NCBI RefSeq assembly: GCF_014076495.1
Contig: NZ_CP043575.1
Location: 4,836,001 to 4,900,000, forward strand
DNA length: 64,000 nucleotides
Direction of reading: 5' to 3'
Origin: Comamonas koreensis
GTDB lineage: Bacteria > Pseudomonadota > Gammaproteobacteria > Burkholderiales > Burkholderiaceae_C
Positions 35,289-49,491 of this stretch are shown here, in pieces. The notes beneath the pieces are model-generated. The model made no database searches. It was given only the letters and a program-made list of their open reading frames with translations, and was not told where the DNA came from. Positions within the stretch are counted from its first letter, which is position 1, and each line of letters begins with the position of its first letter. Position numbers and translations under genes: made by a program.

Positions 35289-36458
35289 TCAGGCCGGCGC
35301 AAAACGCAGGCGAAACCGCGCGCCGCCCCGCGACGAGCTCTCGGCCAGCGCCACCCCGCCTTGCAGCTCGGTCAGCGCCTGCACGATGGACAGCCCCAGG
35401 CCCGAGCCCTCCCGCTTGCGCCGGCCCGGGGCCATCGCAAAGCGCCGGAAGGGATGCGTGCGCAGCTCCTGCGGCAGCCCCGGCCCGGCATCGCTGACCA
35501 GCAGCTCGATCCAGATATGCCCCTGTGCATCGCGCAGGTTGCGCACCTCCACCTCCAACCAGTGCCCGCTGGCCGCGTGGCGCACGGCATTGCCCACCAG
35601 GTTGGCAATGATCTGGCGCATGCGCAACGGGTCGGCACGGATGGTGCTGACCGCATCGTCCTCGGGCAGCACTTGCGACAGCACCATCTGAGCGTGCTGC
35701 AGTTGGGGCTGCAATTCCTGAAGACTTTCGCGCACCAGTGCCCCCAGGCTCAGGCGCTCCTTGCGCAGCGACATCTCACCGGCCTCGGCCATCGCCAGCG
35801 TATGCAGGTCGTCAATCAAGCGGCCCAGGTGCTCGGTCTGCGCCAGCAGCAGCCGAAACTCCTGATCGCTGGGCGCAATGACGCCATCGCACATGGCATG
35901 CAAATGGGTCTTGAGCACCGACAGCGGCGTGCGCAGCTCATGCGAGATGGAGGCGGCCGACGCCTGGCGCTCGGCATTGAGCTTTTGCAGCGCGTCGATC
36001 ATCGCGTTGAAGGTGTGCACCACTTCCTTCAACTCACCGTGCGCGCCCTCTTCCACCACGCGTGTCGAGCTGAAGTCACCGTGCGCCACGCGCTGCGCCA
36101 CCTCCACCATCGACGCCAGCGGCCGGGTGATATAGCGCGAGACGAAAAAACCCATGGCCAGGCCAAACGGCAGGCAGACCAGCAGACCGATGAACAGCGA
36201 CACCTGCTCGCCAAAGAACACCTCGCCACGCCAGTATTCGCCATAGATCTGCATGGCACGCGGGCTGTTGTCCAGGTCGCGCTCGATCAGGTCGTCCAGC
36301 TCCACCCGCACCGCGCTGGGCAGGCTTTGGTAGAACTGGTTGTACTGCACCGCATTGAAGGCCCAGGCACAGGCGCTGAGCAGCGCAATGGTGCTGAGCA
36401 GCGTGCCGGCAATCCAGAAGCCAAAGCGGACCCAGATGCGGTTCAGTCCCCGGGCCAT
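35289..36458 (-). CDS. Sensor histidine kinase (BaeS/CpxA-like)
   Basis: A 389-residue membrane kinase. Helix 1 is at about residues 12-34 (FWIAGTLLSTIALLSACAWAF). A short periplasmic domain of about 60 residues follows, then helix 2 (VSLFIGLLVCLPFGLAMGFFV) and HAMP (SRYITRPLASMVEVAQRVAHGDF). HisKA has SISHELRTPLSVLKTH (phospho-His). The ATPase domain has N box NLVGNAVRHA, G1 DAGPGLP and G2 GSGLGLSIV. The start ATG 36458 overlaps the response regulator by 16 nt, so the pair is coupled. The two divergent genes downstream of the shared promoter region encode an exporter, the likely target. Confidence 0.92.
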   Translation of the reverse strand: MARGLNRIWVRFGFWIAGTLLSTIALLSACAWAFNAVQYNQFYQSLPSAVRVELDDLIERDLDNSPRAMQIYGEYWRGEVFFGEQVSLFIGLLVCLPFGLAMGFFVSRYITRPLASMVEVAQRVAHGDFSSTRVVEEGAHGELKEVVHTFNAMIDALQKLNAERQASAASISHELRTPLSVLKTHLHAMCDGVIAPSDQEFRLLLAQTEHLGRLIDDLHTLAMAEAGEMSLRKERLSLGALVRESLQELQPQLQHAQMVLSQVLPEDDAVSTIRADPLRMRQIIANLVGNAVRHAASGHWLEVEVRNLRDAQGHIWIELLVSDAGPGLPQELRTHPFRRFAMAPGRRKREGSGLGLSIVQALTELQGGVALAESSSRGGARFRLRFAPA

Positions 36459-37168
36459 AGGCGGTACCCAATGCTGCGCACGGTCTCGATCAGCTCCTCC
36501 TGGCCGGCCAGCTGCAATTTGCGGCGCAGCTTGGACAGGTGCGAGTCGATCACCCGCTCCAGTGCGTCGCTCTCGGGCAGGCACTGCTCGATCAGCTGCG
36601 CGCGTGAAAAACAGCGCCGCGGCTGGGAGGCCAGCAGGGCCAGCAGCCGGAACTCGGTCAGGGTCAGCGGCAACGGTGTTGCCTGGCCCTGCGCGTCGTA
36701 GACCCGGGCACTGTGCTCGGCGGGGTTGATCTCCAGCGCGCCCACCCGAATGGGCGCCATCGGTGCAGCGGGGGCCTTGGGCTGGCTGCGGCGCAACACG
36801 GCGCGCACGCGCGCCACCACTTCGGCGGGGTTGAAGGGCTTGACCACATAGTCATCGGCCCCCAGGCGCAACGCCACGAGCTTGTCCACGTCATCGGCCA
36901 GCGCCGTCACCATGATCACCGGGGTCTGGCCCTGGTCGCGGATGAAGCGCAGCACATCGACCCCGTCGATGCCGGGCAGGTGGATGTCGAGCAGCACCAG
37001 GTCGGGCTGGTTTTGGCGAAAAAGCTGCAAGGCCTGCTCACCATCGCGTGCAAACAGCGTACGCAGACCGTCGCGCTCCAGGTAGGCGACCAAAATCGTG
37101 GCAATGCCTGGCTCATCCTCCACGACGAGCACCAGCGGAGCGGCCACAGGTGGCGTAGGTAGTTTCAT
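36443..37168 (-). CDS. OmpR/BaeR-family response regulator
   Basis: A 241-residue regulator. The receiver domain has VLVVEDEPGI (acidic pair), LVLLDIHLPGIDG (phospho-Asp near residue 58), a Thr in MVTALAD and the Lys in VVKPFNPAEV. The winged-helix output domain has LTLTEFRLLALLASQP and VIDSHLSKLRRKL, ending SIGYRLWPGD. I choose ATG 37168 (MKLPTPPV); ATG 37180 is also possible. It is divergent from the exporter operon, and a direct repeat suited to this family lies between them. Confidence 0.93.
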   Translation of the reverse strand: MKLPTPPVAAPLVLVVEDEPGIATILVAYLERDGLRTLFARDGEQALQLFRQNQPDLVLLDIHLPGIDGVDVLRFIRDQGQTPVIMVTALADDVDKLVALRLGADDYVVKPFNPAEVVARVRAVLRRSQPKAPAAPMAPIRVGALEINPAEHSARVYDAQGQATPLPLTLTEFRLLALLASQPRRCFSRAQLIEQCLPESDALERVIDSHLSKLRRKLQLAGQEELIETVRSIGYRLWPGD

Positions 37169-37300
37169 GGCAGACACCATCGCAAGTAGGTTCCAGCGGC
37201 GCCTCACAGGGCGCCCAAAAGCGGTTGAAGCAAGCCATTATGACCGTGCCGCTCGCCCGCTGCACGCCTTGGCGGCCTCCATGTTTTCTCCATCATTTGT

Positions 37301-37405: not shown

Positions 37406-38830
37406 GTGAAACCCTTGTTCTGCAAAACACTGCTGGCGCTGGCACCTGCCGCTTTGCTGGCCGGTTGCATGACGCCTGCGCAACCCCCGCTCAACCCCGA
37501 CACCCCGGCACAGTGGCGCCAGGCGGGCGGCAGCGCACCCCATGCGCATGCCGTCAAGGCCGCCGACCTGAGCGCCTGGTGGACGCTCCTGGGCGACCCG
37601 GCACTGGACAAGCTGGTGGAGCAAGCACTGGCCCAGAACCTCGATTTTGCCCAGGCGCAAGGCCGGCTTGAGGCCCAGCGAATTTTGCTGGGCACGGCCA
37701 CCGCCGCCTACAAGCCAGCGTTCAGCGCCGGCGTGCGCACCTTGCAGGATGTGGCCGCCCTCGACTCCTACTTCCACGCCAGCCTGGACATGGGCTGGAA
37801 CCTCGGCTTGTTTGGGGCCTATGAATCCAGTGCGCTCGATGGCCAGGCGCAACTGCTCGATGCCCAGGCACAGCTGCAGGCCGCCAGGGTCCAGCTGGTC
37901 TCCCATGTGGTGCAGCGCTATCTGGACATCTGCGTGGCGCAGCAGCAACGCTTTGTGCTGGACCAGCAGCTGCAGCTCGATGCGCGCCGGCTGCAGCTGC
38001 AGCAGGTGCGTGTGCAGCAGCGCATGGGCAGCGCCGAGCAGGTGCAGCAAGCCCATCTGGAGCTCAACCGCAGCCGCGCGCAGGAGGCCGATCTGCTGCA
38101 GCACCAGGCACGCGCAGCGCATGCGCTGGCTGCACTGCTGGGCCGCAGCGAGCCCGAAGCCGCCTGGCTGGCCACTTCCAGCACCCCCCACATCCCCAGC
38201 GCCACTGCGCTGCGCCTGCAAGTACTGCCCGCCGAGCTGCTGCGCAGCCGCCCGGCCATCCTGGCGGCCGAAGCCGCGGTGCAGCGCGCCGCCGCCGCAG
38301 CGGGCCTGTCGAACTCGGCGCTCTACCCCCGCTTTGCGCTGGGGGGCTCATTGCTGTACTCCTACAACCTGACGCAGAACCGCCGCTCCAGCTCCAACCA
38401 GGTGCCCTCGCTGGGCCCGGTGATCGACATTCCGCTGTTCGACTGGGGTCGACGGCGCGCGCAGGCCGATGCCGACGAGCTGGAGATGAACAACGCCGTC
38501 AAGGCCTACCGGCAAAGCGTGCTCGACGGCGTTGCCGATGTGGAAACCGCGCTGGCCGGCCTCACTGCCCAGCAGCAACGCCAGCAATCGCTCGATACCC
38601 AAACACCGCTGCTGCGCAGCCGCGCCCAACAGCTGCAGCGCCGCCAGCAGCTGGGCCTGGCCAGCGAGCTCGATACGCTGGAGCCCCGCCGCCAGCTGCT
38701 GCTGCACGCAAGCCAGCAGAGCGTGGCGCAAGCTGCTCAGGCGCTGGCCTGGGTGGCGCTGTTCCAGGCGCTGGGCGGCGCCCCACTGCCGCCGCAAACC
38801 CCACCCGGCACCGCAGGGGCCACGCCATGA
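37406..38830 (+). CDS. NodT-family outer-membrane efflux lipoprotein
   Basis: A TolC-like outer-membrane channel of about 474 residues. It has a lipoprotein signal peptide (KPLFCKTLLALAPAALLAGC, lipobox LLAGC near residue 20). WWTLLGDPALDKLVEQAL, two OEP repeats rich in Gln/Ala coiled coil, and VPSLGPVIDIPLFDWGRRRA are typical NodT signatures. I take GTG 37406 as the start since the signal peptide begins there; no ATG is available and the ribosome site is weak. Its stop overlaps the permease start (ATGA). It should form the outer-membrane exit of the ABC exporter encoded next. Confidence 0.9.
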   Translation: MKPLFCKTLLALAPAALLAGCMTPAQPPLNPDTPAQWRQAGGSAPHAHAVKAADLSAWWTLLGDPALDKLVEQALAQNLDFAQAQGRLEAQRILLGTATAAYKPAFSAGVRTLQDVAALDSYFHASLDMGWNLGLFGAYESSALDGQAQLLDAQAQLQAARVQLVSHVVQRYLDICVAQQQRFVLDQQLQLDARRLQLQQVRVQQRMGSAEQVQQAHLELNRSRAQEADLLQHQARAAHALAALLGRSEPEAAWLATSSTPHIPSATALRLQVLPAELLRSRPAILAAEAAVQRAAAAAGLSNSALYPRFALGGSLLYSYNLTQNRRSSSNQVPSLGPVIDIPLFDWGRRRAQADADELEMNNAVKAYRQSVLDGVADVETALAGLTAQQQRQQSLDTQTPLLRSRAQQLQRRQQLGLASELDTLEPRRQLLLHASQQSVAQAAQALAWVALFQALGGAPLPPQTPPGTAGATP

Positions 38831-39972
38831 TTGCGCTGGCCCGCAAAACCCTGGTCTACGAATGGCGCCGCTTTGTCCCCTCGGTCTTCGCGGTGGGCTT
38901 TGCCGGTGTGCTGCTGGTGATGCAGGCCGCCCTGGTGCTGGGCATTTTCAGCTCGGCTGCCATCTACATCACCGCCAGCTCGGCCGACCTCTGGGTGGGC
39001 TACCCCGGCACGCAGAGCGTGAACTTTGGCCGCAACATCGGCCCCGATGTGGAAATGCGCCTGCGCATGGACCCGGACATCCGAGCCGTCGAGCCCTTTG
39101 TCTGGGTCGATGGCGACTGGCGTTCCAACCAAGAGGCAGGCCAGGGCGCCGGCGCGGTGTCGGTCTACCTCTCGGGCATTTCCACCGCCGGCACGGCCAT
39201 GGTGTTCGATCGGGTCATTGCGCCCTGGCAGCGCAAGCTACTGCGCGAGCCCGGCGCCGTCATCGTCGACCGCGCCGATCTGGGCAGCCTGGCCACCCAG
39301 GAAGGCGGTACCGCCTGGATCAACAACCACCGTGTGCGCGTGGTCGCCGCCGTCGATGGCTTGCGCGGCCTGGGCGGTGTCAACGTGCTGGCATCGCTGG
39401 AGAGCGCGCACCAGATCGCTGGCAGCTCGCCCAGCCAGGGCAGCACCTACCTGCTGGCCCGGGTGCGCAAAGGTGTGGACAACCAGGCTGTGCAGCGGCG
39501 CCTGGGCAGCGAAGCGCGCAGCTTTGGCCCGCACGAGGTCTGGACTGCCGACAGCTTTGCGCACCGCTCCCAGCGCTACTGGATGCTCGATACCGGCGCG
39601 GGTGCTGGCGTGCTGTTCATGGCCATCGTCGTCTGCCTGGTCGGCGCGGTCGTCACCAGCCAGTCGCTCAAGAGCGTGGTCGCGGGCTCGGTGCGCGAAT
39701 ACGCGGTACTCAATGCGCTGGGCGTCAGCCGCGCGGCGCTGGGCCGGGTGGTGGTGGAGCAGGCCTGCTGGATCGGCGCTGCCGGCCTGCTGCTCACCAC
39801 CATCGCCAGCGTGGCCCTTGTCTCGCTCGCCCAGGTCTACCGGGTGCCCGTTGCGCTCAACCTGCAAGCCGTGCTGGCCTGCGCTGCCCTGGTGGCCACG
39901 TTGGCGCTGCTGTCCGGCCTGGGCGCGATGCGCGTGCTGCTGCGCACCGACCCGGCCACCTTGCTGCGCTGA
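38827..39972 (+). CDS. FtsX-like ABC exporter permease (DevC-like)
   Basis: A 381-residue permease. Helix 1 is at residues 15-45 (PSVFAVGFAGVLLVMQAALVLG). A large periplasmic domain (about residues 46-255) begins SSADLWVGYPGTQSVNFGRN. Three C-terminal helices form the FtsX core (GVLFMAIVVCLVGAVVTSQSL; ACWIGAAGLLLTTIASVAL; VLACAALVATLALLSGLGAM). The permease, ATPase and adaptor subunits with an OM channel resemble DevBCA-TolC, which exports glycolipids in heterocystous cyanobacteria. The gene overlaps the NodT gene by 4 nt, and the ATPase follows after 11 nt. Confidence 0.88.
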   Translation: MIALARKTLVYEWRRFVPSVFAVGFAGVLLVMQAALVLGIFSSAAIYITASSADLWVGYPGTQSVNFGRNIGPDVEMRLRMDPDIRAVEPFVWVDGDWRSNQEAGQGAGAVSVYLSGISTAGTAMVFDRVIAPWQRKLLREPGAVIVDRADLGSLATQEGGTAWINNHRVRVVAAVDGLRGLGGVNVLASLESAHQIAGSSPSQGSTYLLARVRKGVDNQAVQRRLGSEARSFGPHEVWTADSFAHRSQRYWMLDTGAGAGVLFMAIVVCLVGAVVTSQSLKSVVAGSVREYAVLNALGVSRAALGRVVVEQACWIGAAGLLLTTIASVALVSLAQVYRVPVALNLQAVLACAALVATLALLSGLGAMRVLLRTDPATLLR

Positions 39973-39983
39973 AGGACATCGCC

Positions 39984-40718
39984 ATGCCCTCCCCTATCCC
40001 CTCCCCTCCAACACCCAGCCTGCAGGCCGTCGGATTGCGCAAGACCTATGTCTCGGGCGCGATCCGCATCCAGGTCCTGCAGGATCTGTCGGTAGATTTG
40101 TACGCCGGCGAGCTGACCCTGATATCCGGCCCCTCGGGCTGCGGCAAAAGCACCTTGCTGTCGCTGATGTCGGGCCTGCTCACCCCCGATGACGGCCAGA
40201 CCTTTGCGCTGGGCCAGAACCTGACGACCATGCCCGTGCGCGAGATGGAGCGCTTTCGGCTGCTGCACACCGGCTTTGTGTTCCAGGGCTTCAACCTGTT
40301 CCCGGCGCTGACGGCGCTCGAGCAGGTGCAGCTGCCGCTGGGCTACCTGGGCATGCGGCGCGCCGAGACCTTGAAGCGGGCCCAGGATGCGCTCGATGAA
40401 GTCGGCCTGTCCCACCGCGCCCACATGCGGCCAGCCGAGCTTTCGGGTGGCGAAAAGCAGCGTGTGGCCATTGCCCGGGCGCTGGCCAAGGCGCCCCAGC
40501 TCTTGTTCGCCGATGAGCCCACCAGTGCGCTGGATGCCGAGAGCGGACAACGGGTGATCGACATCCTTCACCGCGTCGCGCGCAGCCATGGCACCACGGT
40601 GCTGTGCGTCAGCCACGACCCGCGCCTGGTCGGGCACGCCGACCGCGTACTGAATATGGAAGACGGTGCCGTCTACAGCGACCGGCGCCAAAACACCCTG
40701 ATGGAGAACCCCGCGTGA
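39984..40718 (+). CDS. ABC exporter ATP-binding protein (DevA/MacB/LolD-like)
   Basis: A 244-residue ATPase with Walker [17 protein letters not shown] (near residue 49). A Q-loop [18 protein letters not shown] follows, then signature [15 protein letters not shown], Walker [13 protein letters not shown] and H-loop SHDPRL. It belongs to the FtsX-partner class of ABC ATPases. The start is ATG 39984 (MPSPIPSPP), 11 nt behind the permease with a GAAGGA ribosome site. Its stop overlaps the adaptor start (GTGA). It should power the exporter with the flanking permease. Confidence 0.94.
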
Positions 40719-41644
40719 CCAAGATTCCCGCAACCCCCTGGCCCTTGCCGCAGGCCTGGCAGGTGCTGGGCCTGCTCTGCCTGGCTGCAGGCGGGCTCGC
40801 CGGCTGCTCACCGGCATCGGACAGCCCCCCCGCGCCCAGCACCAGCCAGCAGCACCAAAGCCCAGTCGCCGTAGCCCGGGGCAAGATTGAGGTCGACGGT
40901 GGCCTGCTGGAGCTGGCCACCGCCATCGATGGCACCGTCCAGCAGATCGCCGTGCGCGAGGGCCAGCAGGTGCAGGCCGGCCAGCTGCTGCTCAAGGTCC
41001 AAGACGAAGACCTGCGCGCCGAGCTGGCCGTCGCCCAGTCCTCGTACCGCCTGGCCCAGGCCAAGCACAAGGCCCTGGCCGCCAAGCTGCCGCTGCTGCA
41101 GACCCAGCTCCAGCGCCTGCAGGCCGCCGCCCGCGATGGCGCAGCCGATCTGCAGGACGTGGACAACGCCCAGGCCGCGCTGCGCAATGCGCAGTCCGAG
41201 ACCGAGGTGGCACAGGCCGAGGTGCAGCTGATGCAGACCAAGACCCAGCAGCTGCGCGAGCGCCAGCGCCTCTATGCGCTGCATGCGCCGGAAGCGGCCA
41301 CCGTGGTGCATCTGCGCGCCCAGGTCGGCAGCCAGGTACATACCAGCCAGGCGGCAATGCGCCTGCTGCCGCTGCGCCCGCTGCGCATCCGCGCCGAGCT
41401 CAACGAGAGCTTTGCCGGCACGGTGCAAAAGGGCATGCGCGCCAGCGTGGTGCTGGACAACGACAGCGCCACCGCGCTGCCCGAGGCCCGGGTGCTGCGC
41501 ATCAACCCCATGTACGGGCCGTCGACCTTGCAGGACGACGCCCAGCGCGGCCCGCTGCGCGTGGTCGAGTGCGTGCTCGAGTTCGAGACCGCCCCCATCC
41601 ATGTGCGTGTAGGCCAGAACGTGAGAGTGAGCTTCCATGAATAA
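40715..41644 (+). CDS. HlyD-family periplasmic adaptor lipoprotein (DevB-like)
   Basis: A 309-residue membrane-fusion protein that links the ABC permease to the NodT channel. It has an N-terminal lipoprotein signal (LLCLAAGGLAGC). A first biotinyl-lipoyl half contains ATAIDGTVQQIAVREGQQVQAGQLLLKV. A coiled-coil hairpin spans about residues 110-195, and the second lipoyl half carries APEAATVVHLRAQVGSQV. A beta-barrel end (VRVGQNVRVSFHE) closes the protein. The start is GTG 40715, overlapping the ATPase stop by 4 nt. The 3' end overlaps the HAD phosphatase gene by 8 nt, so exporter and enzyme genes form one transcript. Confidence 0.88.
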   Translation: MTKIPATPWPLPQAWQVLGLLCLAAGGLAGCSPASDSPPAPSTSQQHQSPVAVARGKIEVDGGLLELATAIDGTVQQIAVREGQQVQAGQLLLKVQDEDLRAELAVAQSSYRLAQAKHKALAAKLPLLQTQLQRLQAAARDGAADLQDVDNAQAALRNAQSETEVAQAEVQLMQTKTQQLRERQRLYALHAPEAATVVHLRAQVGSQVHTSQAAMRLLPLRPLRIRAELNESFAGTVQKGMRASVVLDNDSATALPEARVLRINPMYGPSTLQDDAQRGPLRVVECVLEFETAPIHVRVGQNVRVSFHE

Positions 41645-42347
41645 ATACATGCTTGCGCAGGCGCCCGCTTGCCACAACACCACGGGCTGGATGGTCCAGT
41701 CCGACTTTGACGGCACGATCAGCCTGGTCGATGTCACTGACAGCCTGCTGCAGCGCTTTGGCCGGCCCGGCTGGACTGACCTGGAAGACGCCTGGGAGCG
41801 CGGCGAGATCGGCTCGCGCGCCTGCATGCAAGGCCAGGTCGCGCTGCTGGACATGAGCCAGCAGCAGCTGGACGCGCACCTGGACAGCATTGCGATCGAC
41901 CCCGGCTTCCCCGGCTTTGTACAGGCAGCGCAGGCGCTGGGCCTGCGCATGCAAGTGGTCAGCGACGGCATCGACTACGCCATCGAACATGTGCTGGCAC
42001 GCCACGGCCTGGGCCATCTGGAGGTGATCGCCAACCGCCTGCTGCAGCAGGACACCCGCCGCTGGTCGCTGGAATCCCCCTGGGCCAGCCCGCACTGCAA
42101 GCGTGCCAGTGGCAACTGCAAATGCGAGCGCCTGGCCACGCAGAAAGCGCTGGCCGGCCGGGTGCTGTATGTGGGCGACAGCAGCTCGGACTTCTGCGTC
42201 TCGCACGAGGCCGACTATGTGCTGGCCAAGTACCGGCTGATCGGTCACTGCGAGCGCCATGGCATCGCCCATGCACCGTTCCAGGGTTTCAGCGATGCCA
42301 CGCCCTGGCTCCTGCAGTTCATGCAGCAGCAGGAGGCCCTCGCATGA
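41637..42347 (+). CDS. HAD-superfamily phosphatase (PSP/MtnX-like)
   Basis: A 236-residue HAD phosphatase. Motif I is SDFDGTISLVDVTDSLL (nucleophile Asp near residue 23). A small helical cap follows, then motif II MQVVSDGIDYAI and motif IV VLYVGDSSSDFC. This resembles phosphoserine phosphatase and MtnX-type enzymes. A Cys-rich patch (SPHCKRASGNCKCER, about residues 151-165) is unusual for the family and might bind a metal. The substrate is unknown. The start overlaps the adaptor gene by 8 nt and the stop overlaps the hydrolase gene (ATGA). In context it may remove phosphate from an amino-alcohol or lipid precursor (inference). Confidence 0.82.
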   Translation: MNKYMLAQAPACHNTTGWMVQSDFDGTISLVDVTDSLLQRFGRPGWTDLEDAWERGEIGSRACMQGQVALLDMSQQQLDAHLDSIAIDPGFPGFVQAAQALGLRMQVVSDGIDYAIEHVLARHGLGHLEVIANRLLQQDTRRWSLESPWASPHCKRASGNCKCERLATQKALAGRVLYVGDSSSDFCVSHEADYVLAKYRLIGHCERHGIAHAPFQGFSDATPWLLQFMQQQEALA

Positions 42348-43279
42348 AGGCCAATGACGCACTCGCCCGCCATCTGGCCAGCCAACCCCAGGAAAGAGCG
42401 GCAGAAGCGGCCTTGCAGACGCTGTGCCTGACGCCCCATGAATTCGTCATGCCCGGCTCCGGCGCTGCCGCGCGCACCGGCGTGCTGTTGGTGCACGGCC
42501 TGACCGGCACCCCCGCCGAGATGCGCCTGCTGGCCAAGGGCCTTCACCGCGAAGGCTTTACCGTCTATGCGGTGCAACTGGCCGGCCACTGCGGCAGCAT
42601 GCAGGACCTGGTGCAGACGCGCTGGACCGACTGGCTCGCCAGCGTGCAGTCGGCGCTGCTGCGCTTTGGGCCCCATGTCGACCGGGTCGTCGTCGGCGGC
42701 CTGTCGATGGGCGCCTTGCTGTCGCTGGCGGTAGCCACCTCCCACCCGCGCCAGGTGGCGGGGGTGGCTGCGCTGTCCACCACGTTCCGCTATGACGGCT
42801 GGAGCATTCCCAGCTACACCAAGCTGGCCTTTTTGCTGCCGCTGTTCCGCCTGCTGGGCATTGGCCGCCACCGCGTGTTCATGGAAGCACCGCCCTACGG
42901 CATCAAGGACGAGGCCTTGCGCGCCAGGGTTGTCGCGCAAATGCACGGTGGCGACAGCGCTGCCGCGGGCCTGCCCGGCAATCCCTGGTGGTCCATCATC
43001 GAGCTGCGCAGGCTCTCGGCCCATGTCCGCAGCCACCTGCGGGATTTGCGCGCGCCATGCCTGGCCATCCACGCCAAGGAAGACGACATCTCCCACCGCT
43101 CCAATGCCGAGGACATCGCCGCTGGCGCCGTCCATGCGCAGGTCGAGGTCGTGCTGCTCGACAACTGCTACCACATGATCACCATCGACCGCGAGCGCCG
43201 CACGGTGATCGCCAAGGTGCATGACTTTGTAGCCCGCCTTGGTGGCATACCAACACAGGCCGCCACCCATGGGCACTGA
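42344..43279 (+). CDS. Alpha/beta-hydrolase (carboxylesterase/monoglyceride lipase-like)
   Basis: A 311-residue serine hydrolase. The oxyanion strand GVLLVHGLTGTPAEMRLL lies near residues 46-63. The nucleophile elbow GGLSMGALLSLAVA lies near 124. The late acid and His are in HAKEDDISHRSNAED and DNCYHMITID. It is similar to Est30-type carboxylesterases and bacterial monoglyceride lipases. There is no signal peptide, so it should act in the cytoplasm. ATG 42344 overlaps the HAD stop. The gene overlaps the next one by 11 nt. A role in acyl transfer or lipid trimming within this cluster is inference. Confidence 0.85.
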   Translation: MKANDALARHLASQPQERAAEAALQTLCLTPHEFVMPGSGAAARTGVLLVHGLTGTPAEMRLLAKGLHREGFTVYAVQLAGHCGSMQDLVQTRWTDWLASVQSALLRFGPHVDRVVVGGLSMGALLSLAVATSHPRQVAGVAALSTTFRYDGWSIPSYTKLAFLLPLFRLLGIGRHRVFMEAPPYGIKDEALRARVVAQMHGGDSAAAGLPGNPWWSIIELRRLSAHVRSHLRDLRAPCLAIHAKEDDISHRSNAEDIAAGAVHAQVEVVLLDNCYHMITIDRERRTVIAKVHDFVARLGGIPTQAATHGH

Positions 43280-43643
43280 GATCACCCCCCTGGTCATCAG
43301 CCTGTGGCTGGTCAATGTGCTGGTCGACAGCGGCGGGCAGCTGGCTTTCAAGGCCGCCGCCAGCCAGACCCCGGGCACGGCCACCGGCATGGCGCACTGG
43401 CGTTTCATGCTCGTGCGCCCCTGGATCTGGATCGGCGGCGCCTGCTATGTGATCGAGTTTGTCGCCTGGCTGGCCTTTTTGTCGCTGGTGCCCCTGTCCG
43501 ATGGCGTGCTGCTGGGCAGCATCAACATCGTGGCCATCATGGTGGCCGGGCGCATTCTGTTCAAGGAAAAGCTCGCACCGATGCGGGTCGCGGGCATTGT
43601 GCTCGTCTCCATTGGCGTGGCTGTCGTGGGCCTCAAGGGGTGA
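43269..43643 (+). CDS. Small EamA/SMR-type membrane protein, subunit 1
   Basis: A 124-residue protein with four predicted helices (PLVISLWLVNVLVDSGGQLAF; PWIWIGGACYVIEFVAWLAFLSLV; GVLLGSINIVAIMVAGRILF; VAGIVLVSIGVAVVGL). It is half an EamA/DMT transporter, the size of SMR proteins and of ArnE/ArnF. ATG 43269 lies inside the hydrolase gene end, and the second small subunit follows after 4 nt. Such pairs usually form a heterodimer that flips lipid-linked or hydrophobic substrates across the inner membrane. Confidence 0.8.
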   Translation: MGTEITPLVISLWLVNVLVDSGGQLAFKAAASQTPGTATGMAHWRFMLVRPWIWIGGACYVIEFVAWLAFLSLVPLSDGVLLGSINIVAIMVAGRILFKEKLAPMRVAGIVLVSIGVAVVGLKG

Positions 43644-43647
43644 TGGC

Positions 43648-44097
43648 ATGAAACGCTTTTACCTGGTCGGCTTTCTGGTGCTGATGGCCTTTGACACGCT
43701 GGCCCAGCTGAGCTTCAAGAAGGCAGGCGATGCCGCGCTGCCGCTGGAGTTCAGCCCCTCCTGGCTCTGGCGCGTGTTTGCCCAGCCCTGGATCTATGGC
43801 GCGCTGGTCGGCTATATCGGCGCCTTCTTCACCTGGATGCATCTGCTGCGGCGCGCGCCGGTCGGCCCGGCTTTTGCCGCCTCGCACCTGGAGATCATCT
43901 CGGTGCTGCTGCTGTCGCACTATCTGTTCCAGGAGACCATCGGCCTGCCCCAGATTCTGGGCTGCGCGTTCATCATCGCCGGCATTGCCTGCCTGGCGGT
44001 GAGCGAAGCCCAGTACCATGGCGCCGCCGAGCCGGCAGAGAAGTTGGCACAGGGCCCGGCGGACAGCGCGGCAGGCGCCCGCGCGGCCGCCCGCTGA
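43648..44097 (+). CDS. Small EamA/SMR-type membrane protein, subunit 2
   Basis: A 149-residue protein with four helices (FYLVGFLVLMAFDTLAQLSF; WIYGALVGYIGAFFTWMHLL; FAASHLEIISVLLLSHYLF; ILGCAFIIAGIACLAV). A 30-residue Ala-rich cytoplasmic tail follows. It pairs with the preceding 124-residue protein, as ArnE and ArnF do for undecaprenyl-linked aminoarabinose. No ArnT-like or glycosyltransferase gene is in the window, so the substrate is not that sugar on present evidence. The gap to the aminotransferase is 28 nt. Confidence 0.8.
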   Translation: MKRFYLVGFLVLMAFDTLAQLSFKKAGDAALPLEFSPSWLWRVFAQPWIYGALVGYIGAFFTWMHLLRRAPVGPAFAASHLEIISVLLLSHYLFQETIGLPQILGCAFIIAGIACLAVSEAQYHGAAEPAEKLAQGPADSAAGARAAAR

Positions 44098-44125
44098 TGG
44101 CAGGCAACCGCCAGGGCCCCCAGCG

Positions 44126-45370
44126 ATGACTGCGCGCCGCATCACGGTACCGCCCACCGCCGGCCTGCCACTGCAGCTGGGCGATCTGCGCCCCTGGGGG
44201 GACCCGCGGCTAGACCGGGCGCTGGCCACCTGGCTGGGCGTGGACGAGGTGCTGCTGGAGTGCTCGGGCACCTCCGCGCTGATGCTGGCATTGCGAACCC
44301 TGCAGCAGCGGGCCCCCGAGCGCTGCGAAGTCGTGGTGCCCGCCTACACCTGCCCGCTGGTGGCCATGGCTGTGGCGCAGTGCGGCCTGCAGCTGCGGCT
44401 GTGTGATCTGTCGCCCGACCGCCTGGACCTGGATGGCAACGCGCTCGACGCGCTGCTCAGCCACCGCACCCTGGCCGTGGTACCCACCCACCTGGGCGGC
44501 CGGGTGGCCGATGTCGCGAGCCTGCTGCCCCGCGCCCAGGCCTGCGGCGCCTATGTGATCGAAGACGCCGCCCAGGCCCTGGGCGCCCGCGTGCACGGCC
44601 GCAGCGTGGGCTTGCAGGGCGATATCGCGCTGTTCAGCCTGGCGGTGGGCAAAGGCCTGAGCACCTATGAAGGCGGCGTGCTGCTGGCACGCGAGCCGGC
44701 GCTGATGGCAGCGCTGCGCGCGCAGCACCAGCAATCCATACGGCCCCACCTCGCCTGGGAACTGCGCCGCAGCCTGGCGCTGCTCGGATACGCCGCAGCC
44801 TATCGGCCGGCGCTGCTGGACGCCGTCTACGGCGCCCCCTTGCGGCGCAGCCTGGCGCGGGGCGACTGGGTGGAGGCGGCCGGCGATGGTTTTGACAGCC
44901 AGATCCCGCAGCACAGCCTGGGCGCCGGGCGCCAGCGCGTAGCCCTGCGCGCACTGGTGCGGCTGCGTGGGCACTGGGAGCAGGCGCAGCAACAGGCGCA
45001 GCGGCGCGGAGCCCAGCTGCGCGCCCTGCCGGGTGTGGAGGTGGTGGACGATGCCGCGCCCCAGGCGCAGGGCATCTGGCCGGTGATTCTGCTGCGCCTG
45101 CCCAGCGCCGCCCAGCGCGATGCGCTGATGCAGGCGCATTGGGCGAGCAGCTGGGGCCTGTCGCTGCCCTTCAGCCAGGTGCTGCCCGACTACGCGCGCT
45201 ACGCGCCCCTGCTGGGCGAGGCCCTGCACGACCCGGTGCCGCAGGCCCGCGACTGGGCGCAGCGCCTGCTGGCCATCAGCAACAGCGCCTGGCTCAGCGA
45301 TGCGCTGTTTGCCCAGCTGCTGGCGGCGCTGACGCGGACGCTGACAAGGCCGCCAGCAGCCGCTGGTTGA
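44126..45370 (+). CDS. DegT/DnrJ/EryC1/StrS-family aminotransferase
   Basis: A 414-residue PLP enzyme of the sugar-aminotransferase class. The cofactor region reads CSGTSALMLAL (phosphate-binding, near residue 34). VVPAYTCPLVAMAV follows, VIEDAAQALGAR has the Asp that contacts the pyridine, and SLAVGKGLSTYEGG carries the PLP lysine (near residue 176). Members usually aminate nucleotide keto-sugars, but others act on amino-polyols or related aldehydes. No sugar-nucleotide genes are adjacent. The start is ATG 44126. Its 3' end overlaps the convergent ureohydrolase-like gene by 77 bp. Confidence 0.85.
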   Translation: MTARRITVPPTAGLPLQLGDLRPWGDPRLDRALATWLGVDEVLLECSGTSALMLALRTLQQRAPERCEVVVPAYTCPLVAMAVAQCGLQLRLCDLSPDRLDLDGNALDALLSHRTLAVVPTHLGGRVADVASLLPRAQACGAYVIEDAAQALGARVHGRSVGLQGDIALFSLAVGKGLSTYEGGVLLAREPALMAALRAQHQQSIRPHLAWELRRSLALLGYAAAYRPALLDAVYGAPLRRSLARGDWVEAAGDGFDSQIPQHSLGAGRQRVALRALVRLRGHWEQAQQQAQRRGAQLRALPGVEVVDDAAPQAQGIWPVILLRLPSAAQRDALMQAHWASSWGLSLPFSQVLPDYARYAPLLGEALHDPVPQARDWAQRLLAISNSAWLSDALFAQLLAALTRTLTRPPAAAG

Positions 45371-46214
45371 GCGCATGCTGCCCTGCCTGGGCCTGCGCCA
45401 GCGCCTGTGCATCCATGGCCGTGTCCTGCCCATCACCGGCACTCAGCCAGCGCTTCCACCAGGTGGCATAGCGCCACGAAGACACATCGCCGGTGATATC
45501 GCTGCCCACGAGCTGGCCCTCCAGCGCTGCAATGATGCCCAGCGCCTGCGCCTCGCGCATCTGGCCCTGGTCCCAGTTGGTGGTGACCACGTCGGTGGCA
45601 AACACATCCTTGTCGATGCTCAGGTAGGTGCTTTGGCGCTCGCGCGCCAGGGTTGCCGCCAAGGCATCGGTCAACGCATCGAGGCTGGGGAAGGCGCGAA
45701 AGGCAGCGGACAGGCCCAGGCGCCGCGCCCAGCCGGTATCCACGCCGCAGCTCCAGTAGCTGAGCTTGCCGCCACGCAGCGGGCCCAGGTAGTTCTCCCA
45801 GGCGTGGCCGGCGCCAATGTCAGCGGAGGTGATGCCCGCCACATGCACATGCGCTACCGCCGGGTGCATGGCAATGCGCCGCACCCAGGAGCCGCAGTGC
45901 ACACCCCAGGGAAAGCGCATGTTGTCGGGGTGGTTGTCCAGCACCACCACGCGCAGCGGGCGCGCCGCTGTGTAGCCCTGGCGCGCGATGCAGTGCTCGA
46001 TCAGCAGCCAGGACAGGTGGTGGAAATCGCCACTGCCCATCCAGGTCGTGCCATGCTGCGCGGGCAGCTGCGCCTGCACATGGCGGCGGAACTGCTGGTA
46101 GCGGCCCAGCGATGACCCAAAACGGATCGCCTCCTGCCAGTCGCCCAGCGGCAGCCGCAGCTCGCCGGCCAAGGGGCCGACAGAGCCATCGACATTGAGC
46201 ACCAAGGGGGTCAT
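45294..46214 (-). CDS. Arginase/ureohydrolase-fold protein
   Basis: A 306-residue protein with the manganese-ligand motifs of the arginase/agmatinase/deacetylase fold: GSGDFHHLSW (His, near residue 60), LDNHPDN (Asp-x-His-x-Asp), and YLSIDKDVFATD (Asp-x-Asp). Overall similarity is weak, so the substrate is open: a guanidino compound or an acylated amine. ATG 46214 has AGGAG at 6 nt and overlaps the upstream acyltransferase stop (ATGA). Its 3' end overlaps the convergent aminotransferase gene. It may release an amine during biosynthesis (inference). Confidence 0.78.
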   Translation of the reverse strand: MTPLVLNVDGSVGPLAGELRLPLGDWQEAIRFGSSLGRYQQFRRHVQAQLPAQHGTTWMGSGDFHHLSWLLIEHCIARQGYTAARPLRVVVLDNHPDNMRFPWGVHCGSWVRRIAMHPAVAHVHVAGITSADIGAGHAWENYLGPLRGGKLSYWSCGVDTGWARRLGLSAAFRAFPSLDALTDALAATLARERQSTYLSIDKDVFATDVVTTNWDQGQMREAQALGIIAALEGQLVGSDITGDVSSWRYATWWKRWLSAGDGQDTAMDAQALAQAQAGQHALNQRLLAALSASASAPPAAGQTAHR

Positions 46215-47278
46215 CGCTGCTCCTGCCATGCGCGGTCACTTTCAAAATGCCGGGAAAACCGCCGCCCCAAGGCCCGAAGCAGCGGGTTGCGGATGTAGAC
46301 CGCATGCTGGGTAAACGTGAAGCTGGCGCCCAATTGCGCCTTGACCTCGGGATCGGTCCAGCCGGCCACATAGTGTGACAGGCCGCATTCGAGCGCATAT
46401 TCCAGGTTCACCATCCAGCTGACGAAGTACAGGTTGGTCTGGCGCGCACGCGGGTAGGACAGGCCGATGTATTTGTCGACCAGGCGCCCATCATGGGCAA
46501 AGCACAGGTTCCAGCCCAGCAGGGCACCATCCTGCGCATCGCGGTACTCGAACACCAGGCCCTGGTTGCTGGCGTCGCGCAGCACCGCGGCAAAAAAGCT
46601 GCGTGTGAGCTTGTCGAAATGCAGCGTGCTTTGTGCATACACGGCCTCGAATAGCGCGTAGTAGGCATCGACCAGCTGCTCGTCGTCAAAGGCCGGGCCG
46701 GTGGGAATGCGGCGGATCTGCAGCTGGCTGCGGCTCTTGAGCTTGCGGCGCAGGTCGGAGCGCCGGTTCTTCGACAGCCGCGCCAGGTAGGCATCGATGC
46801 GCTCGAAATCGATAGGGACATAGGCCAGCGCCTGGCCTTCGACCAGGATGAAGCCCTGGTGCTGGAGCGCCTGGGCCAGCCGGCGGGCATCGGCATTGTC
46901 GGCCGGAGGCAGCAGCGGCGAGTCCTGCGGCAGGTCCTTGACGACGGTCAGCATGCAGCGCCCCGCGTGGCGGCGCAGCTCACCAGCGAGCTTGTCCATC
47001 GCCACCTCCGGGGGCAGCACCAGGTACTCGCTCAGTGTCGAGCCGACAAAATCGGTGCGCAGCCGCAAGCGCTGCGCCAGCCAGGCACCGCCGGGCAGCC
47101 GTAGCACCCAGCGCTTGACGGCCGCGTCGGCCGTGGTCAGCAGATCGAAGGGCGCGCGAAAGGCCGGAAACGGCCGGTCCGAGCGCACCACAAAGCCCTC
47201 GGGCGGATGCGCGGCAAACTGCCCGATCAGTGCCGAGGGCTCCAACTGGTTGCGCGCAGGGCGCAGTGGCTCGCTCAA
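46211..47278 (-). CDS. GNAT/FemAB-like acyltransferase (BioF2-type)
   Basis: A 355-residue protein. From about residue 155 it resembles the acetyltransferase-fold FemAB/BioF2-like family: RIDAYLARLSKNRRSDLRRKLKSRS, then LFEAVYAQSTLHFDKLTRSFF, LLGWNLCFAHDGRLVDKYIGLSYPRAR and FVSWMVNLEYALECGLSHYVAGWTDPE. Family members transfer acyl or aminoacyl groups to amines. The start is TTG 47278, coupled to the class III aminotransferase stop by overlap; no upstream ATG is available. It is followed by the ureohydrolase-like gene, so the three minus-strand genes form an operon. Confidence 0.75.
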   Translation of the reverse strand: MSEPLRPARNQLEPSALIGQFAAHPPEGFVVRSDRPFPAFRAPFDLLTTADAAVKRWVLRLPGGAWLAQRLRLRTDFVGSTLSEYLVLPPEVAMDKLAGELRRHAGRCMLTVVKDLPQDSPLLPPADNADARRLAQALQHQGFILVEGQALAYVPIDFERIDAYLARLSKNRRSDLRRKLKSRSQLQIRRIPTGPAFDDEQLVDAYYALFEAVYAQSTLHFDKLTRSFFAAVLRDASNQGLVFEYRDAQDGALLGWNLCFAHDGRLVDKYIGLSYPRARQTNLYFVSWMVNLEYALECGLSHYVAGWTDPEVKAQLGASFTFTQHAVYIRNPLLRALGRRFSRHFESDRAWQEQR

Positions 47279-48657
47279 GCGCAGGACCGCTTGGCCAGGC
47301 TGATCAGCTGGTCGAGCATCACCAGCGCTTCATCGATCTCGCTGCGGCTGATCATCAGCGATGGCGCGAAGGTGATCACGTTCTTGTAGTAGCCGCCCAC
47401 GTCCAGCACCAGGCCGCGTCGTTGGCCCTGGTATTCGAGCTTGCCTTCGAGGCCCAGGTCCACCATCTTGTCGAGCAGCGCCTTGTTGGGGGTAAAGCCG
47501 TCTGCCGTGCAGATCTCGGCGCGCAGCGCCAGGCCCATGCCGTCGACATCGCCGATTTCCGGGTGGCGCTTTTGAAGCTGGCGCAGACCATCGAGGAAAT
47601 AGGCCCCCGACTCGCGCACCTGGCGGCCAAAGTCCATCTCGTGCGTCATCTTCATCACTTCCAGGCCCAGCGCCGTGCCCAGCGGATTGGAGGCAAAGGT
47701 CGAATGGGTCGAGCCTGGCGGGAACACCGTGGGGTTGATCAGCTCTTCACGGGCCCACAGGCCCGACAGCGCGTTCAAGCCATTGGTCAGCGCCTTGGCA
47801 AACACCAGCACATCGGGCTTGACGCCAAAGTTCTCCACCGACCACAGCGTGCCGGTGCGCCAGAAGCCCATCTGGATTTCGTCGACTACCATCAGCACGC
47901 CATGGTCGTCGAGCACCTTCTTGAGGCCCTTGAAGAAATTGGGCGGTGGCACGACGTAGCCGCCGGTGCCCTGGATCGGCTCCACATAGAAGGCCGCGTA
48001 CTCGCACTGCTGGGTCTTGGGGTCCCAGACGGCGTGGTATTCGTTCTCGAACTTGCGCGCAAACTCCTGCACGATGGACTCCGCATATTCTTCGGAGGTC
48101 ATGCCCTTGGGGCGGCGGAAGGGGTAGGGGAAGGGAATGAACTGCGCGCGGTCGCTGAAGTGGCCAAAGCGGCGGCGGTAGCGGTAGCTGGAGGTGATGC
48201 TCGACGCCCCCAGGGTGCGGCCATGGTAGCCACCTTCAAACGCGAACATCAGGCTTTTGCCATGGGTGGCATTGCGCACGACCTTGAGCGAATCCTCAAT
48301 CGCCTGGGCACCGCCCACATTGAAGTGCACGCGGCCTGGCATGCCCCATTTTTTCTCGGCATCTTGCGCAATGAACTTGGCCAGCTCGATCTTGGTCGGG
48401 TGCAGGTACTGGCTGGCCACCTGGGGCAGCTCGCGCAACTGCTCGATCATCTTGTCTTCCAGGCGCTTGTTCTTGTAGCCGAAGTTGACGGCCGAGTACC
48501 ACATCTGCAAATCCAGGTAAGGCGTGCCGGCCTGGTCAAACATGTAGCTGCCCTCGCAGCCGCTGAAGATCTTGGGGGGGTTGACGTAGTGAACGGTGTC
48601 GCCAAAAGAGCAGTATTGCGCTTCGTCAGCCAGCAGTTGTTCGGTATTGAAAGTCAC
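47275..48657 (-). CDS. Class III PLP-dependent aminotransferase
   Basis: A 460-residue fold-type I aminotransferase (annotated in relatives as an aspartate or omega-aminotransferase family). NVGGAQAIEDSLKVVRNATHGKSL and FEGGYHGRTLGASSIT are the cofactor-phosphate and Tyr/His regions. VVDEIQMGFWRTG carries the Asp, and FAKALTNGLNALSG the PLP lysine near residue 290. The substrate is probably a terminal amine or aldehyde, not certain. GTG 48657 is preferred because GGAG lies 9 nt upstream; the open frame continues upstream without homology. It leads the minus-strand operon and diverges from the phosphatidyltransferase gene. Confidence 0.85.
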   Translation of the reverse strand: MTFNTEQLLADEAQYCSFGDTVHYVNPPKIFSGCEGSYMFDQAGTPYLDLQMWYSAVNFGYKNKRLEDKMIEQLRELPQVASQYLHPTKIELAKFIAQDAEKKWGMPGRVHFNVGGAQAIEDSLKVVRNATHGKSLMFAFEGGYHGRTLGASSITSSYRYRRRFGHFSDRAQFIPFPYPFRRPKGMTSEEYAESIVQEFARKFENEYHAVWDPKTQQCEYAAFYVEPIQGTGGYVVPPPNFFKGLKKVLDDHGVLMVVDEIQMGFWRTGTLWSVENFGVKPDVLVFAKALTNGLNALSGLWAREELINPTVFPPGSTHSTFASNPLGTALGLEVMKMTHEMDFGRQVRESGAYFLDGLRQLQKRHPEIGDVDGMGLALRAEICTADGFTPNKALLDKMVDLGLEGKLEYQGQRRGLVLDVGGYYKNVITFAPSLMISRSEIDEALVMLDQLISLAKRSCA

Positions 48658-48867
48658 GGCACAGGGCTCCAGTTTTGAGTGCCGCCAGTCTGGCCCTGCA
48701 ATGTTGTGGCTCCGCCTACATTGTTTGTAGGATTGATGGAGATCTTGCCCGCTTGATGGAGCACGGCCTGCGCCCGGTTTGGCGCTGGCCGATACTGGGT
48801 GTACCATGGTCGCAACCAGGGCGCCCCCAGAGGCGGCCCGTGCATTTGAGCCGCAGACATCCTATCC

Positions 48868-49491
48868 ATGAATAGTCCACACAAACGTTTTTCGATGATT
48901 CGCGAGTTCCACCTCGCTGACTGGTTCACCTTGGGCAATGCCGTCTGCGGCGTGGGCGCGCTGTTCTCGGCGATGACCTTTCTGGAGACCTCGGACCGCC
49001 GGCACATCTACTTTGCCGCCGCCCTGGTGCTGGCCGCGCTGGTCTTCGACATCTTTGATGGCCGCATTGCGCGCTGGCGGCAAAAGTCATCGGCGATGGG
49101 GCGCGAGCTCGATTCGCTCGCCGATGTGATCTCGTTCGGTGTGGCGCCAGCCATCATTGCCTATGCCTGCGGCATGCAAGGCCTGTGGGACCGCATTGTG
49201 CTGGGCTACTTTGTGGCCTGCGGCGTCTCGCGCCTGGCGCGCTACAACGTGACCGCAGAATCACTGTCAGAGGGGCCATCGGGCAAGGTGAAGTATTTCG
49301 AAGGCACCCCCATCCCCACCTCGATCGTGCTGGTGGCCCTGCTCGCGCTGGCCGCCGTGATGAACGCGGTGCGCGCCGATCTGTGGTTTGGCAAAGTGCT
49401 GATCGGCGGCTTTACCCTGCACCCGCTGGTGCTGCTGTTTGCAGTCTCGGGCTCGCTGATGATCAGCCGTATCAAGATCCCCAAGCTGTAA
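48868..49491 (+). CDS. CDP-alcohol phosphatidyltransferase (PssA-like)
   Basis: A 207-residue integral membrane enzyme. Its CDP-alcohol phosphotransferase motif, D-x2-DG-x2-AR-x8-G-x3-D-x3-D, is visible in FDIFDGRIARW and SSAMGRELDSLADVISFG (residues 55-85). Five to six helices follow. PssA makes phosphatidylserine from CDP-diacylglycerol and serine, and this is the likeliest activity. However, the protein is shorter than and differs from what I recall of the main Burkholderiales PssA, so it may use another alcohol. It is divergent from the class III aminotransferase (210-bp shared region) and immediately precedes the repeat element. Confidence 0.85.
   Translation: MNSPHKRFSMIREFHLADWFTLGNAVCGVGALFSAMTFLETSDRRHIYFAAALVLAALVFDIFDGRIARWRQKSSAMGRELDSLADVISFGVAPAIIAYACGMQGLWDRIVLGYFVACGVSRLARYNVTAESLSEGPSGKVKYFEGTPIPTSIVLVALLALAAVMNAVRADLWFGKVLIGGFTLHPLVLLFAVSGSLMISRIKIPKL

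Follow-up and report, generated by a model that had tools for sequence, protein, structure and literature searches.

What does a group of bacterial genes make when it joins a four-part exporter to two aminotransferases and several enzymes of generic families, and is such a group one system at all? We addressed this question in Comamonas koreensis, in a stretch of 64,000 nucleotides (contig NZ_CP043575.1, positions 4,836,001 to 4,900,000), which we call the window and whose numbering is used below. An earlier note on this DNA had described a twelve-gene block starting at 37406, completed by a CDP-alcohol phosphatidyltransferase gene, and had supposed that an amine-bearing lipid or amphiphile is made, flipped and exported. 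We found a cluster of about 14 genes, which starts with a two-component system (35289-37207) and ends with a class III aminotransferase gene (48657). Its genes are inherited as one unit, and the set recurs far beyond chance.

The evidence for a single unit came from 250 genomes of the family, which were searched with three window proteins, the alpha/beta hydrolase, the class III aminotransferase and the FemAB-like protein. The hydrolase and the aminotransferase had an identical presence pattern (21/250 genomes). The FemAB-like protein was found in 22/250, 20 of them within the aminotransferase-bearing 21; the two genomes beyond the 21 gave weak matches (E ~1e-11), and one of the 20 proteins was merely 28% identical. 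The congener G128 lacks the gene set, indicating that the presence of the cluster is patchy. The surroundings of the 20 other cluster-bearing genomes, several of which end early, were then searched with every window protein. The aminotransferase, the HAD phosphatase and the hydrolase occurred together in 20/20 of these loci, the FemAB-like protein in 19, the ureohydrolase-fold protein and the first small EamA protein in 18 each, the second EamA protein in 17 and the DegT protein in 16. All four exporter parts were present in 16/20, so that exporter and enzymes go together in most relatives, the opposite of the separation which the earlier note had named as grounds for doubt. The gene order of the window was retained in several relatives, while G075 carried the same genes in shuffled order with genes for a ketosynthase and an acyl carrier protein (ACP) interposed. 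Only the phosphatase, the hydrolase, the aminotransferase and the regulator remained in the 40 kb read of G018, suggesting that the first three form the core of the system.

Moreover, the set extends beyond the family. The aminotransferase was matched at E<=1e-120 in 15/399 genomes of the order, ten of which belong to other families (59-65% identity); at those ten loci a phosphatase and a hydrolase relative were present in 10/10 and a ketosynthase in 6/10. A scan of named genomes was queried with a distant version and covered the best 80 of 584 relatives, in order of their likeness to that query; its counts are not informative on true frequencies and are lowered by short contigs and single-query searches, while those for kinases and regulators are inflated, any two-component system giving a match. 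Within these 80 loci, the aminotransferase was accompanied by the HAD phosphatase in 76, the hydrolase in 66, an EamA protein in 46, the FemAB-like protein in 43, the ureohydrolase in 40, a ketosynthase in 12, the FtsX permease in ten and the DegT protein in eight. The hosts among the matches listed included many Pseudomonas species, Rhizobiales, Bartonella, Pigmentiphaga, Oleiagrimonas, Desulfovibrio, Acidobacteria and a Riflebacteria bin. In the acidobacterial loci, the aminotransferase stood mostly with the phosphatase, at times with ketosynthase and ACP, and Xanthomonas sacchari carried the Comamonas-type set plus ketosynthase and ACP. Open reading frames in the fetched loci were called by a home-made codon-composition heuristic, which found almost none in the low-GC locus L121; the phosphatase, hydrolase, ketosynthase and ACP of this locus were visible by tblastn only.

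Plasmids carry the genes as well. The aminotransferase was identified in 34 of 72,556 plasmid records (Rhizobium 16, Agrobacterium 10, Bartonella 5 and three others). The FemAB-like protein was found in 46, 11 from Roseomonas and one from Aureimonas; since both genera are absent from the aminotransferase tally, it also occurs apart. On the Agrobacterium fabrum plasmid pAt1D132a, a compact locus with a response regulator and a kinase at one side continues with phosphatase, aminotransferase, ureohydrolase, EamA, hydrolase, FemAB-like, EamA, TolC, permease, ATPase and adaptor genes, and all of its cluster proteins are detectably related to those of the window. Altogether, the comparison of co-occurrence and order that the earlier note had proposed showed that the set recurs, whole or in part, in distantly related bacteria: on plasmids of Agrobacterium, Rhizobium, Bartonella and Xanthomonas, and also in Pseudomonas, Desulfovibrio and Acidobacteria. 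Plasmid p3 of Planktothrix rubescens (L176 9219-11365) held phosphatase and aminotransferase only, flanked, as judged by eye, by mobile elements and sugar metabolism genes.

The earlier note had wondered whether the adjacent two-component system controls the block, and our results place this system within the cluster, which moves the left limit from 37406 to 35289. It consists, on the minus strand, of a sensor histidine kinase (35289-36584; Pfam HAMP, HisKA and HATPase_c) and an OmpR-type response regulator (36443-37207; Pfam). Relatives of the regulator (63-80% identical) lay beside the cluster in 12/20 genomes and relatives of the kinase (48-63% identical) in 8/20, several regions stopping short of the position. 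Among the regulator's other eight genomes, four regions end at the exporter, and no such OmpR-type regulator was found at the threshold used in the fetched cluster regions of G075, G135, G222 and G223. The regulator is 52% identical to its counterpart in the A. fabrum plasmid locus.

A direct repeat, ATGGAG-N5-ATGGAG (37274-37294, minus strand), lies between the regulator and the exporter operon and is a putative operator. At the regulator promoter of the first 12 genomes, the window included, stood TGGAG-N6-TGGAG or a form differing from it by one letter, with 11 bp between the starts of the two halves (13 regions were first read, L041 and L104 being one and the same genome). These genomes are not independent samples. 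The literal pattern is not found in a thirteenth genome, G188, whose site carries one further changed letter and scored 26.1, above 120/120 random segments. The repeat thus stands at the regulator in 13/13 genomes read, against 81/4800 random segments of the same loci that contain the loose pattern. Throughout the 5.2 Mb genome, RTGGAG-N5-RTGGAG is matched exactly by the site at 37274-37294 alone, while a control reading of the pattern gave three matches. A weight matrix built from the regulator sites was applied to 17 aminotransferase promoters, with the 5% level taken from random same-locus segments; four of the 21 promoters (L044, L045, L049 and L051) were excluded because no OmpR-type regulator was found nearby. 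The best site reached the 5% level in 12/17 (two at exactly 5%), and these sites lay on the same strand at a near-constant distance from the gene, with one exception. The window itself has a weaker copy, a putative second operator, at 48724-48744 (plus strand), 66 nt upstream of the likely aminotransferase start codon. The spacing of the repeat is about one helical turn, as would be expected of a regulon of an OmpR-type protein. Taken together, a direct-repeat sequence common to the regulator and both operons is predicted to serve as their operator.

Other regulators and neighbours were seen at some loci. A Pseudomonas protegens copy (L197 15024-16517) has a sigma-54-type response regulator in place of the OmpR type (Pfam). 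In Pseudomonas loci (L194 and L190 also), the neighbourhood further includes a GlpM gene, a MipA gene and a second two-component system. In G018 (L095 10764-12452) and G219 (L097 10611-12332), the two-component system is adjoined by an acyl-CoA-dehydrogenase-like gene that looks by eye like the AidB type.

The reading frames, 13/13, were open at the positions claimed by the earlier note, as judged from the frames and their start codons, and its twelve closely packed genes were borne out. Spacings on the plus strand, from the NodT-type gene through the DegT gene, are -4, 11, -4, -8, -4, -11, 4 and 28 nt, and the minus-strand trio of ureohydrolase-fold, FemAB-like and aminotransferase genes overlaps by 19 and 4 nt. 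The DegT and ureohydrolase-fold genes, on opposite strands, overlap tail to tail by 77 nt (45294-45370). Most of the earlier family names were upheld, with OEP, FtsX, ABC_tran, HlyD, MtnX-like HAD, Hydrolase_4, DegT, FemAB_like, Aminotran_3 and CDP-OH_P_transf supported by Pfam or NCBIfam; the first EamA protein fell slightly short and the ureohydrolase assignment lay under its Pfam cut-off, its fold being upheld by a model. Short motifs, which we take to be those of active sites, were found in the HAD protein, the hydrolase, the ATPase, both aminotransferases and the ureohydrolase-fold protein. In their folds and motifs, these proteins are like functional enzymes.

One gene was removed from the set. 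The CDP-alcohol phosphatidyltransferase (48868-49491, plus strand; Pfam CDP-OH_P_transf, PssA-like) had been regarded as the headgroup builder, yet it was near the cluster in 0/20 relatives, and its own relatives (E<=1e-20) occurred in 24/37 genomes tested, located elsewhere, with the cluster present or absent. We therefore rejected it as a cluster member and consider it a neighbour outside the system.

The exporter is encoded in one operon on the plus strand by genes for a NodT/TolC-type outer-membrane factor (37406-38830; Pfam OEP), an FtsX/MacB-type ABC permease (38827-39972; Pfam FtsX), an ABC ATPase nearest to DevA, LolD and MacB (39984-40718; Pfam and NCBIfam, with Walker A and LSGG) and a HlyD-type periplasmic adaptor (40715-41644; Pfam HlyD). 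With an FtsX-type permease, a separate ATPase, a HlyD-type adaptor and a TolC-type factor, the four-part architecture of DevBCA-TolC and MacAB is complete. The earlier name, DevBCA-like, holds for this architecture but not for strict membership, all three subunits being under the NCBIfam cut-offs (devC, far under, 50.3 vs 290.35 bits; DevA, 225.4 vs 295.8; DevB, 42.1 vs 129). Unlike those systems, both the adaptor and the outer-membrane factor carry a lipobox (LAGC), as lipoproteins do, and the exporter is joined to an amine-enzyme operon. Two small EamA/SMR proteins follow further along the same strand (43269-43643 and 43648-44097); the second passes Pfam EamA, and the first lies slightly below it (27.0 vs 28.2 bits).

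Between adaptor and EamA genes lie two core genes, for a HAD-IB phosphatase (41637-42347) and an alpha/beta hydrolase (42344-43279; Pfam Hydrolase_4) with, by eye, no obvious signal peptide. The phosphatase belongs to the MtnX-like subfamily TIGR01489 (NCBIfam, 91.7 vs 81.55 bits) and is not an MtnX equivalog (68.7 vs 303.2 bits). The third core gene encodes the class III aminotransferase (47275-48657, minus strand; Pfam; a longer open reading frame begins at 48807), the best-conserved protein of the system. No NCBIfam class III model reached its cut-off among the matches listed (25 of 69), the best scoring 266.5 vs 552 bits. Ornithine and gamma-aminobutyrate aminotransferases handle glutamate via a glutamate-arginine pair. 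The cluster enzyme has invariant threonines at what we take to be these positions. Readings along the lines of the hopanoid aminotransferase HpnO, or of aminocyclitol, exosortase-associated or iturin-type beta-amino-acid systems, were considered on general grounds and dropped. The second aminotransferase, a DegT/DnrJ-type pyridoxal phosphate enzyme (44126-45370, plus strand; Pfam), retains the lysine motif; no gene for it is annotated in the Agrobacterium and Rhizobium loci read.

The earlier note had called for structure-based searches of the remaining two enzymes. Structure comparison gave the fold of both, whereas single-sequence searches of solved structures yielded chance-level matches only. 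The ureohydrolase-fold metallohydrolase (45294-46229, minus strand) had an AlphaFold model (predicted local distance difference test, 92.3) with clearly that fold by Foldseek and VIA-align, and its binuclear-metal ligand motifs were invariant in 25 aligned sequences, in agreement with the fold and motifs of the superfamily. On Pfam PF00491, the window protein scored below the gathering score (17.5 vs 22 bits), and 25/25 aligned members matched at E<=0.01 (best 2.1e-10). A profile found arginases and agmatinases among solved structures at whole-sequence E values of 5e-7 to 3e-5, with no single strong stretch. It thus shares fold and metal-ligand motifs with arginase, agmatinase, guanidinobutyrase and proclavaminate amidinohydrolase, but differs from them in its Pfam score and, in our reading, in the invariant glycine of DITGD. 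This glycine, near the C-terminal motif, was read from the alignment at what we take to be the guanidinium-binding glutamate of arginase, the profile alignment stopping one residue earlier; a guanidine substrate is therefore doubtful. In Pigmentiphaga humi (L203 13290-15929), a gene that looks by eye like a cyanophycin synthetase gene stands tail to tail with the ureohydrolase-fold gene, and its group was found in three loci.

The FemAB-like transferase (46211-47278, minus strand) matched Pfam FemAB_like, as did 20/20 aligned members, and structure comparison placed it in the tandem-GNAT fold of FemX, MprF and the aminoacyl-tRNA-dependent synthases. Its profile gave no match to solved structures, and no sequence-profile match links it to MprF, the lysyl- and alanyl-phosphatidylglycerol synthases or FemX. 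Unlike MprF-type synthases, it has no fused flippase domain and is accompanied by its own amine-making enzymes. Because numerous GNATs and ureohydrolases that act on other substrates also appear in the Foldseek lists of the two proteins, we do not derive a substrate from these lists. In G222 (L042 11582-14569) and also in G135, the FemAB-like and ureohydrolase genes are followed by genes for a thermostable-hemolysin-family protein, an AMP-ligase and an iron-containing redox enzyme (Pfam); relatives of the first two co-occur in cluster locus L119 too.

Clues to the product came from related loci. The Rhizobium acidisoli operon includes a fatty-acid desaturase and a cyclopropane synthase gene and lies beside a MipA-family outer-membrane gene, and a cyclopropane synthase stands amid the cluster genes in three family members (Pfam). 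Other loci hold fatty-acid hydroxylase, AMP-ligase, thermostable-hemolysin-like and iron-containing redox genes, and further ones a desaturase, an AMP-ligase and a glycosyltransferase resembling monogalactosyldiacylglycerol synthase. An acyl-lipid product is suggested by the genes that some copies carry for a desaturase, a cyclopropane synthase, a hydroxylase, a ketosynthase and ACP, and lipid-modifying genes inside related operons speak for the amphiphile proposed earlier.

A route to such a product can be sketched by analogy. The class III aminotransferase may aminate a small carbonyl compound that is probably phosphorylated, from which the HAD phosphatase would take the phosphate off to leave an amino-alcohol or amino-acid-like headgroup. 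In two reports, the RtxA aminotransferase of rhizobitoxine synthesis acts on dihydroxyacetone phosphate with later removal of the phosphate (PMC3222319), and in the Campylobacter capsule pathway of Cj1437 and Cj1435 dihydroxyacetone phosphate is aminated and a HAD phosphatase dephosphorylates after amide formation (PMC11800397). The likeness to these serinol-phosphate pathways is one of aminotransferase and phosphatase steps, and serinol as the exact headgroup is kept as an analogy only. The FemAB-like protein could then join the amine to an acyl or aminoacyl group through an amide or ester bond. Trimming or unmasking of the product may fall to the hydrolase and the ureohydrolase-fold enzyme, and in the Comamonas-type version a second amine could come from the DegT protein. 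Flipping across the inner membrane would be the task of the EamA pair, and onward transport that of the FtsX-type pump, adaptor and outer-membrane factor. In other lineages, ketosynthase and ACP, desaturase, cyclopropane synthase or hydroxylase may tailor the acyl chain. We regard it as an even call that a sensor-controlled pathway makes an amine-bearing acyl lipid or lipid-like molecule here and moves it outward through the envelope. Several results weigh against this reading: the Comamonas set has no plain lipid-building gene; its genome gave a single ketosynthase match at E<=1e-95 (44% identity, FabF level; ACP was not searched), as did the other searched genomes, cluster-bearing or not, except that a second match was found in G075 and G069; and 5/17 aminotransferase promoters had no site reaching the 5% level of the weight matrix.

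Could the genes instead be chance or loose neighbours, an exporter beside unrelated metabolic genes? Gene order is compact in high-GC genomes, and the DegT and exporter genes are absent near some copies. This idea is nonetheless refuted, and we give it next to no weight, by the identical presence of two genes across the 250 genomes and the co-occurrence and kept order in the 20 relatives; the direct repeat common to the cluster promoters also speaks against it, as does the return of the set in rearranged form in G075, Oleiagrimonas and Agrobacterium. A water-soluble amine-rich metabolite, such as a signal, chelator or antibiotic, exported by the EamA pair and the ABC pump, with lipid genes merely adding a fatty tail, deserves more attention. 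The near-universal core is only phosphatase, aminotransferase and hydrolase, small EamA/SMR pairs presumably export polyamines too, and plasmid carriage is common in secondary metabolism. The lack of ketosynthase and ACP near Comamonas-type relatives (G075 excepted) or the listed Pseudomonas loci fits this alternative and counts against a lipid. Since several lineages have acyl-chain enzymes within or next to their operons, and the neighbour groups that were identified, of which a part was tested, included no peptide-synthetase or polyketide assembly line, we consider a soluble product unlikely, yet a serious contender.

Another alternative is that the envelope already contains the polymer or lipid concerned (lipid A, phosphatidylglycerol or a peptidoglycan precursor) and that the system decorates it with an unusual amino group in an Arn- or MprF-like response to cationic peptides or envelope stress. 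Arn operons comprise an aminotransferase of the DegT/ArnB fold and paired small EamA proteins, ArnE/F, under two-component control. The cluster resembles what we take to be their content in all three respects, and its FemAB-like protein has the catalytic fold of FemX and MprF. Unlike the Arn operon, no ArnA, ArnC or ArnT homologue was found among the cluster genes scanned, and the DegT protein is far below the ArnB cut-off (NF008658, 68.6 vs 631 bits) and absent from many copies. Moreover, a modification at the inner leaflet would not require a dedicated outer-membrane exporter. A MipA-family gene group was near the cluster in 29/90 distant loci (one representative was family-tested), with a further MipA gene in L199, and none was found among the window genes scanned. 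One report describes Pseudomonas aeruginosa MipA as binding polymyxin(s) and acting with ParRS, and two-component systems as adjoining most mipA loci screened (PMC10936184). By analogy, such neighbours favour an envelope-stress signal in other lineages and are not evidence for the Comamonas version. We judge envelope decoration improbable, somewhat more so than a soluble metabolite.

Returning to the amine-bearing acyl lipid, a broader proposal can be made, which we hold tentatively and with less confidence than the pathway itself. An undescribed class of amine-bearing envelope lipid, made by the phosphatase-aminotransferase core, may be spread over Proteobacteria, Desulfovibrio, Acidobacteria and more groups, sometimes on plasmids. 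A two-component system, joined in many lineages by MipA-type co-sensors, might govern its installation, and it would serve in envelope charge or host contact alongside Arn and MprF, with no relation to either. We found no described pathway with this set in openly licensed papers, and one may be described in a subscription journal. That plasmids of Rhizobium, Agrobacterium and Bartonella carry the set suggests that it acts on surfaces or in association with hosts.

Compared with what had been proposed before, the system is more widely distributed, its regulator is identified and one gene has left it, and the idea of an uncharacterised machinery for making and exporting an amine lipid survives. 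Such a gene set, for a product that is probably a lipid, has been hidden under generic names such as class III aminotransferase, arginase family, GNAT and EamA, in free-living, root-nodule and bat-associated bacteria, and the common direct repeat offers a direct handle on it.

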